From NCBI GenBank assembly GCA_905233445.1, contig CAJOEP010000001.1:62001-126000 (forward strand): 64,000 nt of DNA, read 5' to 3'. Shown piece by piece: positions 2,088 to 37,458 of the stretch. Under the pieces are notes generated by a model. It was not told the origin of the DNA, did no database searches, and saw only the letters and a list, made by a program, of their open reading frames with translations. The stretch is from an uncultured Bacteroidales bacterium (GTDB lineage Bacteria > Bacteroidota > Bacteroidia > Bacteroidales > F082). A program made the translations under genes and the position numbers. How positions within the stretch are numbered: the first letter of the stretch is position 1; the number at the start of each line of letters is the position of its first letter.

Positions 2088-2149
2088 AAGCGGCAACCTT
2101 AAGGGCTTTAACGCCATTATTGGCTTTAATGCCTTTAAGGTTGCCGCTT
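2088..2149. repeat. Palindromic repeat or bidirectional terminator; 15-bp perfect arms AAGCGGCAACCTTAA/TTAAGGTTGCCGCTT
   Basis: Direct inspection; related 60-nt copy inside murF-alr at 27221-27280. Confidence 0.85.
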
Positions 2150-14385: not shown

Positions 14386-14448
14386 ATTAGGTATTAGCTA
14401 TTAGCCATTAGCTATTAGCCATTAGCTATTAGCCATTAGCAATTAGTC
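14386..14448. repeat. Heptanucleotide tandem array, nine units, (ATTAGCY)n
   Basis: ATTAGGT ATTAGCT ATTAGCC ATTAGCT ATTAGCC ATTAGCT ATTAGCC ATTAGCA ATTAGTC. Confidence 0.95.
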
Positions 14449-14463
14449 AGAAGTCATAAAACT

Positions 14464-15847: not shown

Positions 15848-15863
15848 CTACAGGTTTTATATA

Positions 15864-15903
15864 ACATCCCGTTGGCGCAAGGCATGCCTTGCGCCCTACG
15901 GGT
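15864..15903. repeat. Palindromic element with core GGCGCAAGGCATGCCTTGCGCC and CCCGT...ACGGG flanks
   Basis: Core at 15874-15895; homologous copy inside manA at 20355-20388. Confidence 0.88.
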
Positions 15904-19604: not shown

Positions 19605-19624
19605 AGACGGTCGGCCGACCGTCT
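19605..19624. repeat. 20-nt perfect palindrome AGACGGTCGGCCGACCGTCT
   Basis: Direct inspection; related element at 53382-53407. Confidence 0.9.
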
Positions 19625-19657
19625 CTACTCTTTACTCTCTACTCTTTACTCTTTACT
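19623..19657. repeat. Heptamer tandem array, five units CTYTACT
   Basis: CTCTACT CTTTACT CTCTACT CTTTACT CTTTACT, ending at the TlpA-like gene stop codon. Confidence 0.92.
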
Positions 19658-20166: not shown

Positions 20167-21174
20167 TTAAACAATATACGTTTCTAATATTTTACAATCT
20201 TCTAACGCTTTGATTTCCACTTTGTTAATGACATTTGGAATTAAAATGCACTCGCCGATGTTGACGATTTCCTCGCCGCCGTCGTATTTCAGGCTGAAAC
20301 TGCCGCCTACACTCATCAAAATCACGAAAGAATCGAGTTCCGAATAATCTTTTAATAACCCGTAGGTGCAAGGCATGCCTTGTACACCACTGAGATGAAT
20401 GAAATTGGTTGTAAAATATGGACATTCCACCATCTTCACGGTGGCGTCTTTCTTGTCGCGGTCGTATTCGGTGCGGTAGTTGTCCTCGTGTTTGTAGTTC
20501 AATGTGAACAACGACTGCGGGATATGCAGTTCGCGGTACATTCCGTGCTGGTCGAGGCGGTCCCAGTCATAGACACGGTATGTCGTGTCGCTGGTCTGCT
20601 GAATCTCCGCCACCATGCAGCCAGGACCCAAGGCATGGATTCTCCTTGCCGGAATGAAAAACACGTCGCCGTCGTTAACTTGTTCAAAATTAAGGACTTC
20701 TGAAATCTTCTTCTCGTAAATCAGCTTCTCGACTTCGGCTTTTGTCACCTCGCGGTTGAAACCTGAAACGAGTTCGGCGTCTTTCTCGGCGTGCATCACA
20801 TACCACATCTCGGTCTTGCCGTTTTCCAGCCCGATTTTCTGTGCGATCTCATCATCAGGATGTACCTGCACCGAAAGCCATGTCAGCGGGTCTATCACTT
20901 TGATTAACAAAGGGAAAGTCTCGCCGTATTTGTCGAAAACGTTGTCGCCAACGAGGTCGCCCATGAAAGTCTCTACGAGGTCGTTTATCTCGTCGCCCTC
21001 GAAATTGCCGTTTGCCACCACGCTGTTCTGACCCTCGACGCCCGACAGCAGCCACATCTCGCCACAATTCATCATTTTGCCGAAGTCCTTGTGCAGCAAT
21101 GTTTTAACATTCTGTCCGCCCCAGATTTTCTCCAAATAAATGGGCTGAAACTTCAAAGGATATAGCACGTTCAT
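20167..21174 (-). CDS. manA: Class I mannose-6-phosphate isomerase; carries an in-frame palindromic repeat
   Basis: LKFQPIYLEKIWGGQ, SVQVHPDDEIAQ, GKTEMWYVM, IPARRIHALGPGCMVAEIQQTSDTTYRVYDWDR. Confidence 0.95.
   Translation of the reverse strand: MNVLYPLKFQPIYLEKIWGGQNVKTLLHKDFGKMMNCGEMWLLSGVEGQNSVVANGNFEGDEINDLVETFMGDLVGDNVFDKYGETFPLLIKVIDPLTWLSVQVHPDDEIAQKIGLENGKTEMWYVMHAEKDAELVSGFNREVTKAEVEKLIYEKKISEVLNFEQVNDGDVFFIPARRIHALGPGCMVAEIQQTSDTTYRVYDWDRLDQHGMYRELHIPQSLFTLNYKHEDNYRTEYDRDKKDATVKMVECPYFTTNFIHLSGVQGMPCTYGLLKDYSELDSFVILMSVGGSFSLKYDGGEEIVNIGECILIPNVINKVEIKALEDCKILETYIV
20355..20388. repeat. Palindromic element copy inside manA (AATAACCCGTAGGTGCAAGGCATGCCTTGTACACC)
   Basis: Shares TAACCCGTAGG-GCAAGGCATGCCTTG with the complement of the der-era spacer element. 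Confidence 0.85.
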
Positions 21175-22443: not shown

Positions 22444-22488
22444 TGTCATTCCGAACGAGTTGTCATTCCGAACGAAGTGAGGAATCTC
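22444..22488. repeat. GTCATTCCGAACGA(A)GTGAGGAATCTC dispersed repeat with partial duplication
   Basis: TTGTCATTCCGAACGA occurs twice in tandem; related copy in murF-alr at 27854-27882. Confidence 0.85.
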
Positions 22489-22506
22489 ATATAATTAAGC
22501 AGAAAT

Positions 22507-26514: not shown

Positions 26515-29121
26515 ATGCTAAAAGATGGTTATACAATAAAACGAATTGCTTCAGTTGTTGATGGTCAAGTGATTGGAAATCAATTAGATGATATAATTAT
26601 TGAGAATATTCTTTTCGACAGCCGTCAGCTTATTGATGCGGAAAATACGTTGTTTTTTGCGCTTTACACTGCACGCAACGACGGACATAAATATATCGCC
26701 GAACTGTATGAAAAAGGCGTCAAAACGTTTGTAATCAACAGAGATTATGTTGAAAACTACGTAAAGACTCGATACATTGCGTCTCTTCCATGTCCCGATG
26801 CGACGTATATCGTCGTAAAGGACACCCTTTCCGCTTTGCAAAAATTGGCGGCCTATCATCGTGCGCAGTTCGATATTCCTGTGGTCGGAATCACCGGGAG
26901 CAACGGCAAAACGGTGGTGAAGGAATGGCTCTATCAGATTTTGTCGCCCTCGATGTCGGTTTGCCGCAGCCCAAAGAGCTACAACTCGCAAATCGGCGTG
27001 CCGCTGTCGGTCTGGCAGATGAATTCCACCCACGACGTAGCGTTATTCGAAGCGGGTATCTCTCAGCCTGGCGAGATGGAAAAGCTGCGCGAGATCATCA
27101 AGCCGACGATAGGCGTTTTCACCAATATAGGCGCCGCCCACGGCAAGAATTTTGAGAATATTCAGCAGAAAATCGAGGAAAAACTGAAACTCTTTAAGGG
27201 CTTTAAAGACCTTAAGAGCAGCGGCAGCATTAACGGCCTTAACGCCATTAATGGCATTAATGCCCTTAAGGCAGCCGCAGTGGTGTATTGCTCTGATAAT
27301 CAAGAAATTGCGAATGCAATTTCAGCCAATAGCGTTCCAGCTTTTTCCTGGAGCAAAACCGATAAAACCGCCGATTTGTATATTTCCTCGGTTGATTGTA
27401 GAGACGCACGGCCGTACGTCTCTACGGAAATAATCGCGGTTTTCAAAGGCAAAAAAATCGCCATCACAATCCCTTTCATTGACAATGCCTCCATTGAAAA
27501 CGCCATCAACTGCTGGTGTGTGGCGCTCTTGCTGGGTCTCCCGAACGAGACAATCGCTGAGCGTATGGCACATCTTGAGACCGTAGAGATGCGAATGGAA
27601 CTCAAGGCTGGTGTTCGTAATTGTCTGATAATCAACGATTCATACAACAACGACAGAAATGCCCTCGCCATCGCCCTCGACTTCATGAACGCACAGCATC
27701 ACGATAACAAGGTGCTGATACTTTCTGACATCCTTCAAAGCGAACAGAAAGAAGAAGACCTCTACAAAAATATTGCACAACTCATTGAAAATAAAGGCGT
27801 TGACATATTCATCGGCATCGGAGAAGCTATCTGCCGAAACATGCAAAAACGCCTGTCATTCCGAGCGCAGCGAGGAACCTCATATTATTATCCGACAACC
27901 TCCGATTTCCTCGCCAACCACCCGATGAAACTATTTGAAAATCAAATAGTTCTGTTGAAAGGTGCGCGTAGCTTCGAGTTCGAGCGCATCATGAAGGTGC
28001 TGCAGCAGAAATCGCATGAGACAGTGCTCGAAATCAACCTCGACAACCTCGTTAAAAACCTTAACTATTATCGCGGAAAACTTAAAAAAGACACCAAGAT
28101 GATGGTGATGGTGAAGGCTTTTGCATACGGCAGCGGCAATTATGAGGTTTCGAACGTTCTTGCATTCCATCATGTTGATTATCTTACAGTTGCGTATGCC
28201 GACGAAGGCGTTGAGCTACGCAACAAAGGCATAAAACTGCCAATCATGGTGATGACACCGGAGACGAACACATTCGATACAATAATCCTCAACAATCTGG
28301 AGCCGGACATTTACAGTTTCCGTTGCCTGTCGCAGCTGGAAGACGCTATAAATCAATTGGATAAGCCTCTTGAGAAGCCTGTCGGAATCCATATCAAAGT
28401 CGATACCGGCATGCATCGTCTAGGTTTCCTTCCGGAAGATATCAATGCATTGATTGAACATATAAAAGCTAATCCGAATCTCCGAATCATGAGTGTTTTC
28501 TCGCATTTTGCGACGAGCGACATGCCTGAGGAGGACGATTTCGTGATGCATCAGGTCGCGATGTACGAGATGATGAGCCAAAAGATTGTGGCGGCATTCC
28601 CATACAAGATTATTCGCCACCTTTTGAATACCGCCGGCATTACACGATTCACTGAGTATCAATATGATATGGTGCGTTTAGGCATCGGCGTCTATGGAGT
28701 TGCAATCTGCGACGAAGATCGCGGAAAGCTTAACAATGTGATGTCGCTGAAGACCACCATCAAGCAGATCAAGGAATATGGACCTGGCGAGACAATAGGT
28801 TACGGTCGTCACGGCAAGATAACGAAACCATCGAAAATAGCAGTGATTCCTATAGGTTACGCCGATGGCTTGCGTCGTCAGCTGGGCAACGGCAAAGCCT
28901 GTTTCTGGGTCAATGGCAAGTCGGCACCTATCATCGGAAACATCTGCATGGACCTCACGATGATAGACGTAACCGGCATCGACTGTCAAGAAGACGACAC
29001 CGCGGTATTATTCGACGACAACCATCCTATTGAAATCATAGCGGAAGCCTGCGACACGATTCCATACGAAATCATGACGCGAATTTCACAAAGGGTAAAG
29101 AGAATTTACGTGAAGGAATAA
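26515..29121 (+). CDS. murF-alr: Bifunctional MurF ligase / alanine racemase
   Basis: MurF GITGSNGKTVVKEWLYQIL; Alr MVMVKAFAYGSGNYEV, HIKVDTGMHRLGF, VRLGIGVYG. Confidence 0.95.
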   Translation: MLKDGYTIKRIASVVDGQVIGNQLDDIIIENILFDSRQLIDAENTLFFALYTARNDGHKYIAELYEKGVKTFVINRDYVENYVKTRYIASLPCPDATYIVVKDTLSALQKLAAYHRAQFDIPVVGITGSNGKTVVKEWLYQILSPSMSVCRSPKSYNSQIGVPLSVWQMNSTHDVALFEAGISQPGEMEKLREIIKPTIGVFTNIGAAHGKNFENIQQKIEEKLKLFKGFKDLKSSGSINGLNAINGINALKAAAVVYCSDNQEIANAISANSVPAFSWSKTDKTADLYISSVDCRDARPYVSTEIIAVFKGKKIAITIPFIDNASIENAINCWCVALLLGLPNETIAERMAHLETVEMRMELKAGVRNCLIINDSYNNDRNALAIALDFMNAQHHDNKVLILSDILQSEQKEEDLYKNIAQLIENKGVDIFIGIGEAICRNMQKRLSFRAQRGTSYYYPTTSDFLANHPMKLFENQIVLLKGARSFEFERIMKVLQQKSHETVLEINLDNLVKNLNYYRGKLKKDTKMMVMVKAFAYGSGNYEVSNVLAFHHVDYLTVAYADEGVELRNKGIKLPIMVMTPETNTFDTIILNNLEPDIYSFRCLSQLEDAINQLDKPLEKPVGIHIKVDTGMHRLGFLPEDINALIEHIKANPNLRIMSVFSHFATSDMPEEDDFVMHQVAMYEMMSQKIVAAFPYKIIRHLLNTAGITRFTEYQYDMVRLGIGVYGVAICDEDRGKLNNVMSLKTTIKQIKEYGPGETIGYGRHGKITKPSKIAVIPIGYADGLRRQLGNGKACFWVNGKSAPIIGNICMDLTMIDVTGIDCQEDDTAVLFDDNHPIEIIAEACDTIPYEIMTRISQRVKRIYVKE
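27221..27280. repeat. 60-nt repeat copy in frame within murF-alr
   Basis: GCGGCAGCATTAACGGCCTTAACGCCATTAATGGCATTAATGCCCTTAAGGCAGCCGCAG aligns without gaps to 2090-2149 (about 50/60 by eye). Confidence 0.85.
27398..27425. repeat. 28-nt palindrome GTAGAGACGCACGGCCGTACGTCTCTAC in frame within murF-alr
   Basis: One base different from the copies at 29127-29153 and 36203-36230. Confidence 0.95.
27854..27882. repeat. TGTCATTCCGAGCGCAGCGAGGAACCTCA repeat in frame within murF-alr
   Basis: Matches the GTCATTCCGAACGAAGTGAGGAATCTCA element at 22461-22488. Confidence 0.88.
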
Positions 29122-29157
29122 AAATGTAGAGACGCACGGCCGTGCGTCTCTACATTT
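29122..29157. terminator. Palindromic repeat / bidirectional terminator AAATGTAGAGACGCACGG-CCGTGCGTCTCTACATTT
   Basis: Perfect palindrome between convergent genes; same family as the murF-alr and pyrC insertions. Confidence 0.9.
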
Positions 29158-29162
29158 TATCA

Positions 29163-35365: not shown

Positions 35366-36103
35366 ATGGCAGAAAACTTAGTAATCATCCCGACGTATAA
35401 CGAGAAAGAGAATATCGAGAAAATAATCCGATATGTCTTCAATCTCCCGATGGCTTTTGATATCCTGGTTGTCGAGGACAACAGTCCCGACGGCACAGCC
35501 GACATCGTGAAGCGCCTCATGCAGGAGTTCCCCGACAGGCTTTTCATCGAGGAAAGAAAAGGCAAGCTGGGTCTCGGCACGGCTTACATCCATGGTTTCA
35601 AGTGGGCGTTACAGCGTGACTATCAATATATTACGGAGATGGATGCTGATTTTTCACATAACCCTGACGACCTTATCCGTCTGCATGACGCCTGCGCCAA
35701 CGGCGCTGACTTGGCTGTCGGTTCGCGCTACAAATGCGGCGTGAACGTGGTCAACTGGCCGATGGGACGCGTTTTGATGTCGTATTACGCCTCGGCATAC
35801 GTCCGCTTTGTGACGAGGATGAAGGTGCGCGACACCACCGCAGGCTTCGTGTGCTACACACGTAAAGTGTTGGAAACCATCGACTTCGACAGAATTAAGT
35901 TCATTGGATACGCTTTCCAAATTGAGATGAAATACACAGCTTGGAAGCTCGGATTCAAGATTGAGGAAGTCTCGATTATCTTCACCGACCGAAAGGAAGG
36001 CACATCAAAGATGTCGGGCGGAATCTTCAGGGAAGCCGTGTTCGGCGTCATCAACTTGAGATGGAGAGGAATGTGGGGTAAAATCAAACCAAGAAAGAAG
36101 TAA
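35366..36103 (+). CDS. Polyprenol monophosphomannose synthase-like glycosyltransferase
   Basis: LVIIPTYNEKENIEKIIRYVF, VVEDNSPDGTADIVK, MDADFSHNPDDL. Confidence 0.95.
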   Translation: MAENLVIIPTYNEKENIEKIIRYVFNLPMAFDILVVEDNSPDGTADIVKRLMQEFPDRLFIEERKGKLGLGTAYIHGFKWALQRDYQYITEMDADFSHNPDDLIRLHDACANGADLAVGSRYKCGVNVVNWPMGRVLMSYYASAYVRFVTRMKVRDTTAGFVCYTRKVLETIDFDRIKFIGYAFQIEMKYTAWKLGFKIEEVSIIFTDRKEGTSKMSGGIFREAVFGVINLRWRGMWGKIKPRKK

Positions 36104-37458
36104 TGAATTACATCATTAAAAACGCGACACTTGTCAACGAGGGAACGACCACGCTGGCAAGTGTCGTCATTTCTGACGGCAAGATCGCACAAATATTGCC
36201 GGGTAGAGACGCACGGCCGTGCGTCTCTACAGGGACAATTATTGATGCTACGGGCCTGTATCTAATCCCGGGCATCATCGACGAGCACGTGCATTTCCGT
36301 GAACCGGGACTGACACAGAAAGCCGACATCTTCACTGAGAGTAGGGCAGCCGTTGCAGGTGGCGTGACATCGTTTATGGACATGCCGAATACCAATCCGC
36401 AGACCACTACAAATGAGCTGTTGCAACAGAAATTCGACCTTGCGGCACAGAAATCGGCGGCGAATTACTCGTTTTATATGGGCGCAACAAACGAAAACAT
36501 CGACGAGATAAAGAAAGTTGACCCGAAAAAGGTTTGCGGCATCAAGTTGTTTATGGGCTCAAGCACTGGAAACATGCTTGTGAACGACAACGACATGCTT
36601 GTGCGCATCTTCAACGAGTCGCCGTGCCTGATTGCAGCACATTGCGAGGACGAGCAGATAATTCACGAAAACACGGTCTGCTGCAAGGATTTGGAGTCGA
36701 AAGACGCGGTGGTAGTAGATGCGAGCATTCATCCTTTTATCCGCACGACAGAAGCTTGCTACAAATCGACAGCGAAAGCGGTTTATATGGCTGCGAAGTT
36801 TGGCGCGAGATTGCATGTGATGCATATCTCGACGAAGTCGGAGCTGACATTGTTTAGAAATGATATTGCATTGAAAGACAAGAAGATAACAGCGGAGACA
36901 TGTCCGCATTACCTTACTTTCTGCGACAAGGATTACGAAGAAAAAAGCTATGCCATAAAGTGCAATCCGGCGATAAAAATGGCATCTGACCGTGATATTT
37001 TGCGCAAAGCCATCGTTGATGGACATATTGACACCATTGGAACCGACCACGCGCCGCATCTTTGGCACGAGAAATTTACGGACGATTATTTCACGGCAAA
37101 ATCAGGCTTTCCGTCGATACAGAACAGCCTCGATGTGATGCTCAATCTCTATCATCAGGGTGTGATTTCGTTGGAACAAATCGTGAAGCTGATGTGCCAT
37201 AATCCTGCTGAGTTGTATCAAATCAAGGGTAGAGGCTTTATTCGCGAAGGCTATTATGCCGACTTGGTACTTGTCGATTTGAATCATGAAAAAGTGATTA
37301 AAAACGACGATATGCTTTACAAATGCGGCTGGACTCCATACGACGGTATGAATGTGAAATCGCGTGTGACGCATACTTTTGTGAACGGAAAACTCGTTTA
37401 TCACGATGGTATCGTTGAAGAAAATATTATTGGAAAACCTTTGGAATTTGATCGGTAA
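36103..37458 (+). CDS. pyrC: Dihydroorotase
   Basis: PGIIDEHVHFREPGLTQKADIFTESRAAVAGGVTSFMDMPNTNPQT; DTIGTDHAPHL. Confidence 0.95.
   Translation: MNYIIKNATLVNEGTTTLASVVISDGKIAQILPGRDARPCVSTGTIIDATGLYLIPGIIDEHVHFREPGLTQKADIFTESRAAVAGGVTSFMDMPNTNPQTTTNELLQQKFDLAAQKSAANYSFYMGATNENIDEIKKVDPKKVCGIKLFMGSSTGNMLVNDNDMLVRIFNESPCLIAAHCEDEQIIHENTVCCKDLESKDAVVVDASIHPFIRTTEACYKSTAKAVYMAAKFGARLHVMHISTKSELTLFRNDIALKDKKITAETCPHYLTFCDKDYEEKSYAIKCNPAIKMASDRDILRKAIVDGHIDTIGTDHAPHLWHEKFTDDYFTAKSGFPSIQNSLDVMLNLYHQGVISLEQIVKLMCHNPAELYQIKGRGFIREGYYADLVLVDLNHEKVIKNDDMLYKCGWTPYDGMNVKSRVTHTFVNGKLVYHDGIVEENIIGKPLEFDR
36203..36230. repeat. 28-nt perfect palindrome GTAGAGACGCACGGCCGTGCGTCTCTAC in frame within pyrC
   Basis: Identical core to the intergenic copy at 29127-29153. 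Confidence 0.96.

Follow-up and report, generated by a model that had tools for sequence, protein, structure and literature searches.

Short palindromic repeats lie in frame in MurF-Alr and other proteins of a ruminant-gut Bacteroidales genus

We found that the murF-alr gene of a Bacteroidales draft genome carries three repeat segments in frame, and that inserts of this kind occur in about 20 genes of the genome and throughout its genus. The earlier note had presented murF-alr as a single-gene case, which holds as an observation but misses this scale. The repeats are probably small non-autonomous mobile elements of several unrelated families, which have multiplied in one ruminant-gut Bacteroidales genus and whose copies inside genes are translated and roughly neutral. 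The identity of the repeats, their in-frame position in Pfam-supported genes, their variation among relatives, the length filter and their loop position in MurF were established computationally; the transposition route, the neutrality, the translation into peptide (for which there are no protein-level data) and the way in which the cores come to differ are inferred only.

The window (the whole 64,000-nt stretch analysed) corresponds to positions 62001-126000 of contig 1 in a draft genome of 2.47 Mb (65 contigs, 88% complete). The murF-alr product contains the Pfam domains Mur_ligase_M, Mur_ligase_C and Ala_racemase_N and C, and its identity as a bifunctional MurF-Alr was supported by NCBIfam NF008897 (1104.6 bits against a cut-off of 804). 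Named relatives matched through this protein are draft genomes of Bacteroidales, most of them obtained from rumen or other ruminant samples. All three segments described in the earlier note were present at the coordinates it gave, in an uninterrupted ORF (Table 1), and each indeed has a relative in a spacer of the window (R1 at 2089, R2 at 29125, R3 at 22461). The other R2 copy of the window, at 36203, is not in a spacer and lies in frame within a second gene, pyrC. All three segments had been called palindromic, and this applies to R2, a 28-nt palindrome of the form GTAGAGACG-core-CGTCTCTAC, whereas R3 is merely an imperfect inverted repeat and R1 consists of 9-10-nt TTAA/GGC units, so that tandem growth may account for part of R1.

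Table 1. Positions in the window of murF-alr, its three inserts and their copies
Feature	Position	Strand	Description
murF-alr fusion gene	26515..29121	+	uninterrupted ORF, 868 aa
R1 insert, SSGSINGLNAINGINALKAAA	27221..27280	+	aa 236-256, 60 nt
R2 insert, CRDARPYVST	27398..27425	+	aa 295-304, 28-nt GTAG-ended palindrome
R3 insert, LSFRAQRGTS	27854..27882	+	aa 447-456, about 30 nt
Insert-spanning stretch of MurF-Alr, example	around VDCRDARPYVSTEIIAVF		
R1 copy	2089..2147		convergent-gene spacer; 85% match to murF-alr R1, E 7e-14
R2 copy	29121..29158		spacer after alr; match 29125-29153, 97%, E 7e-9
R2 copy	36203..36230	+	in frame within pyrC; match 36203-36231, 97%, E 7e-9
pyrC, dihydroorotase-like gene	about 36082-37455		Pfam Amidohydro_1; contains R2 copy
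R3 copy	22461..22497	+	divergent-gene spacer; 86% match to murF-alr R3, E 1e-7

Other repeats were also noted in the window. An R2-like palindrome with another core (GTCGGCCGAC) lies in a spacer at 19605-19628, and a tandem ATTAGCCATTAGCT array occupies a spacer at 14386-14455. A further palindrome family, CAAGGCATGCCTTG, is found at 20353-20382 within a phosphomannose-isomerase-like gene (20167-21174, minus strand) and at 15862-15891 in the spacer separating two GTPase genes; a repeat of this kind also fills the third MurF site in relatives.

We then searched the whole genome for the three repeats. A degenerate R2 pattern with at most three mismatches gave 24 forward matches against 0 for the reversed control, the R3 pattern gave 33 against 0, and R1 was located by BLAST at roughly 15 places; reversed-pattern controls exist for R2 and R3, whose matches are far above chance. 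The three segments thus belong to dispersed repeat families, as had been proposed. The stretches around the repeat copies were read, and the codon-level counts cover these fetched stretches, not every gene. They contain 44 R2-type palindromes when mismatches are allowed, many of them in frame in Pfam-supported genes, with R2 in frame within pyrC, aroA, malQ, dus, a RecD-like helicase, glycogen synthase/phosphorylase and others. The Pfam-supported hosts include MalQ, a PyrC-type amidohydrolase, a transglutaminase, Dus, a U32 peptidase, GINT1, EPSP synthase (three inserts), glycogen synthase/phosphorylase, the RecD-like helicase and an APH/RapZ protein, as well as a Macro-domain protein, a TPR protein and type IX sorting domains. 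R3 copies are mostly in spacers, and those in genes affect DnaX, a MutS2-like protein (immediately before the P-loop) and a helix-hairpin-helix protein; R1 occurs within TilS. The names RecD-like and MutS2-like, and AnmK-like below, are our own readings, presumed from the sequence alone.

The MurF-Alr alignment with 19 orthologues of the same genus showed that R1, R2 and R3 occupy three length-variable sites separated by well-conserved MurF blocks. Each of the three is missing from most of the orthologues, and some of these hold a different repeat at the same loop; even where MurF is about 70-85% identical, the segments are absent or other repeats stand in their place. At site 1, where our gene has R1, L071 has a TTAAGGGC array and L075 an R2-like palindrome, while most others have little or nothing. 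At site 2, R2 is shared with three relatives (L069, L070 and L073) and is replaced or absent elsewhere; in L081 a decayed 30-nt R2 has kept the frame and reads CEDKSPEVST (17 of 30 bases identical, shuffle P 0.00015). At site 3, L073 shares R3 with our gene, L069, L070, L082 and L083 have a related SFRAERSGVEKSS-type repeat, and a CAAGGCATGCCTTG-type palindrome is found in L074, L075 and L076. The segments are thus not conserved MurF sequence, and neither outcome that would have refuted the earlier reading, namely such conservation or the same peptides in close orthologues without intergenic repeat homology, occurred. Its proposal that repeats have become protein-coding in the MurF half is supported by the presence of the same repeats in spacers genome-wide and by their variability among orthologues. 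We also mapped the segments on an AlphaFold model of the whole MurF-Alr (38-row alignment, mean pLDDT 81.7). Since the pTM of 0.51 makes the domain arrangement unreliable, only local positions were used. R1 is predicted to form a disordered loop (pLDDT 37-40), R2 the tip of a beta hairpin (strands 288-298 and 301-310), and R3 a low-confidence loop linking helix 437-443 to strand 455-459, so that all three lie in loops or at a hairpin tip; solvent exposure was not computed.

The expansion of the R2 palindrome is limited to one genus: the exact GTAGAGACG-N8-12-CGTCTCTAC pattern was recovered from 72 of the 75 genomes compared within the genus, where a genome may hold as many as 79 copies; among 74 genomes from other genera of the family, 3 contain it, once or twice each. 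When eight genes were compared among ten genomes of the genus, a given loop could lack an insert, carry the same palindrome or carry a different repeat. The malQ loop is the clearest case, being empty in G005, G026, G017 and G043, filled with VERHGRASLQ in G000, G032 and G011, and occupied by other repeats in G046, G052 and G039; at the pyrC site, relatives have other cores or no insert. The reverse comparison, from the in-gene copies of G011 to G000 and G052, gave the same picture for 14 genes. The DNA around the insert in the RecD-like gene is nearly identical in G000, G026 and G046 though these genomes otherwise differ, which suggests transfer between species.

These observations can be brought together in a model in which non-autonomous mobile repeats would multiply within the one genus. 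On insertion into a spacer, the main palindrome would fold into a hairpin, often terminator-like. Insertions into genes would persist only if they add a net length that leaves the frame intact (28 nt plus 2, ten codons), if they are read in one of the two frames without the TAG stop, and if their residues extend a loop; they would then be translated as part of the protein and be roughly neutral. Any loop tolerant of one insert would accept others as well, which would explain why relatives show different, decayed or no repeats there. Of 64 non-gene copies, 37 have TTTT no more than 9 nt away, compared with 2 of 35 gene copies (p=1e-7), and the R2 copy after alr has A and T runs on either side and scores as a terminator. 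The main palindrome in spacers thus often looks like an intrinsic terminator. The sole Rfam match over the spacer palindrome was below threshold (27.2 bits against a gathering score of 114) and gave no RNA family identity.

No mobilising enzyme could be named when the presence of Y1_Tnp genes was compared in 55 genomes of the genus, and neither target duplication nor microhomology was found at the insert sites. Microhomology between the element end and the empty site (TCATTGCA versus TCTCTACA), which visual inspection had suggested in recD and aroA, was not above that of shuffles (P 0.57 and 0.96); the recD insert and aroA site 173 are not clean insertions, with net gains of 15 and 21 nt instead of 30. 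It remains possible, if unlikely, that RAYT (Y1/HUH) transposases insert the repeats, which would then be true GTAG REPs mobilised by TnpA-REP. Intragenic GTAG/CGTC REPs, as in Opitutus terrae, are 20-40-bp palindromes found mostly in spacers and in some ORFs including repair genes, and the GTAG repeats surveyed came from Proteobacteria, Cyanobacteria, Chloroflexi and PVC, Bacteroidetes not being among them (PMC3733652). The R2 repeat resembles them as a short palindrome with terminal GTAG, here on both strands. Furthermore, this genome has two Y1_Tnp genes, one of them within 1.4 kb of an R2 copy, and Y1 counts correlate weakly with palindrome counts (rho 0.34, p 0.011, uncorrected for phylogeny or completeness). 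However, Y1_Tnp is missing from 18 of the 55 genomes, which still hold up to 26 palindromes and include ones that are 96-99% complete, and the R2 palindrome was not seen flanking the two Y1 genes of this genome. In addition, the GTAG here is paired within the full palindrome as part of its stem, whereas in REPs it is a one-end tag, and no link to a RAYT has been shown. Presence and absence across the genus therefore do not support Y1/RAYT as a resident mobiliser. One Y1_Tnp gene (L178 2209-2769, on contig 42 of G000) is flanked by other, REP-like GGGC-AAC-GCCC hairpin repeats.

The cores of R2 are very diverse palindromes, the ends being fixed by the search pattern itself. At the pyrC and U32 sites, the cores differ between species at 5-6 of 10 bases with pairing kept (P at most 0.0005), while the ends and the 28-nt length are the same. 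In an AnmK-like gene, the same flanks enclose one core in G011 and another in G000, and G052 lacks the insert; L335 likewise has different cores within the same flanks in G011 and G000. Such differences could arise by a cassette-like exchange, in which a variable palindromic core between constant ends is swapped by recombination or arm-templated copying, so that a DNA-level process rewrites the loops, perhaps with benefit, although neither benefit nor recombination tracks were tested. We consider this exchange rather improbable, since independent insertion at a tolerant loop yields the same picture and aroA site 173 shows no excess core pairing (P 0.35); the core differences themselves are compatible with both processes. 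Equally doubtful is the extension of this idea to a DNA-level diversification in this genus, in which constant-end palindromic units with exchangeable cores are inserted and swapped in tolerant loops of housekeeping proteins. If true, such a process would let loops turn over faster than point mutation permits.

The mobile-repeat reading, with translated inserts, entails a filter on length and frame. We sampled all 39 exact copies of G011, those exact copies of G000 that fell in its fetched stretches and part of those of G044, and counted a copy as in-gene when it lay in an ORF of 200 aa or more and its flanks were coding-like. As a result, 35 of 83 copies of 28 nt were in genes, compared with none of the 16 that measured 27 or 29 nt (p=0.0005 for the three genomes; 0.008 for G000, 0.03 for G011 and 1.0 for G044, which has only two other-length copies). 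Since this criterion requires an open frame, frame-keeping copies are favoured by construction. A second test, which ignored the frame across the repeat, gave 36 of 82 against 1 of 16 (p=0.004), and an earlier, stricter coding filter had pointed the same way at lower power (p=0.019); the thresholds were fixed after this stricter first look. Of the 36 copies of 28 nt whose flanks are coding-like, 32 sit within frame-keeping ORFs, and one of the palindrome's three reading frames has TAG. Hairpins within essential genes could also remain untranslated, through excision from the RNA or ribosomal skipping, and mitochondrial hairpins bypassed by the ribosome offer a precedent for skipping. This is very unlikely here, because skipping needs no frame and yet copies of 27 or 29 nt were absent from genes; the frame-filter results thus speak for a translated insert and against its removal from the RNA or its bypass by the ribosome. 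Finally, an assembly or binning artefact, or ordinary loop growth through slippage, hardly deserves consideration in spite of the incomplete 65-contig draft and the tandem simple repeats in R1 and some loops, since the same in-frame inserts occur at the same sites in separate draft genomes (L069, L070 and L073), the reversed-pattern controls were 0 and dispersed 28-nt palindromes are not a product of slippage, which contradicts it for R2 and R3 and leaves a possible share of slippage for R1.

Protein-coding palindromes are best known from Rickettsia, which are intracellular bacteria. The likeness to Rickettsia palindromic elements (RPEs) that the earlier note drew, with the proviso that the elements differ, is apt as an analogy: the Rickettsia and Wolbachia elements are also palindromic repeats that occur both in spacers and, in frame, within many housekeeping genes, their encoded segments lie in exposed protein regions, where those of MurF-Alr have a predicted loop or hairpin-tip position, and different RPE groups have been reported in orthologues of one gene (PMC3767692, PMC2229807). 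However, RPEs are 100-150 bp long (PMC3767692), compared with 28 nt or ten codons for R2, about 30 nt for R3 and 60 nt for R1, and the host here is a member of the Bacteroidales, not an intracellular alphaproteobacterium. The sequences are also unlike, several families here share one gene, and the cores vary between fixed ends. Nematomorph mitochondria similarly retain palindromes within functional coding sequence, up to 284 bp long and with both arms encoding conserved protein, but these are not described as dispersed loop repeats (PMC6649704). Since the length and host definition of RPEs is unmet and no RAYT link is shown, we assigned the repeats to neither RPEs nor REPs. No published mention of the repeat strings was found in the open-access literature searched. 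Judged by analogy, the system works like RPEs and intragenic REPs, but it differs from them in sequence and host phylum, with no mobilising enzyme shown.

Because the palindromes are spread widely through a gut genus for which dozens of genomes exist, their insertion and decay, the change of cores and the filtering by frame can be traced at orthologous loops. The inserts thereby form a catalogue, made by nature, of those loops in MurF, AroA, MalQ, PyrC and other proteins that accept about ten foreign residues, and they serve as a warning that such segments in these proteins are repeat-derived and do not indicate conserved function. The exact R2 palindrome was also observed in seven stretches of putative viral contigs (L394-L400).
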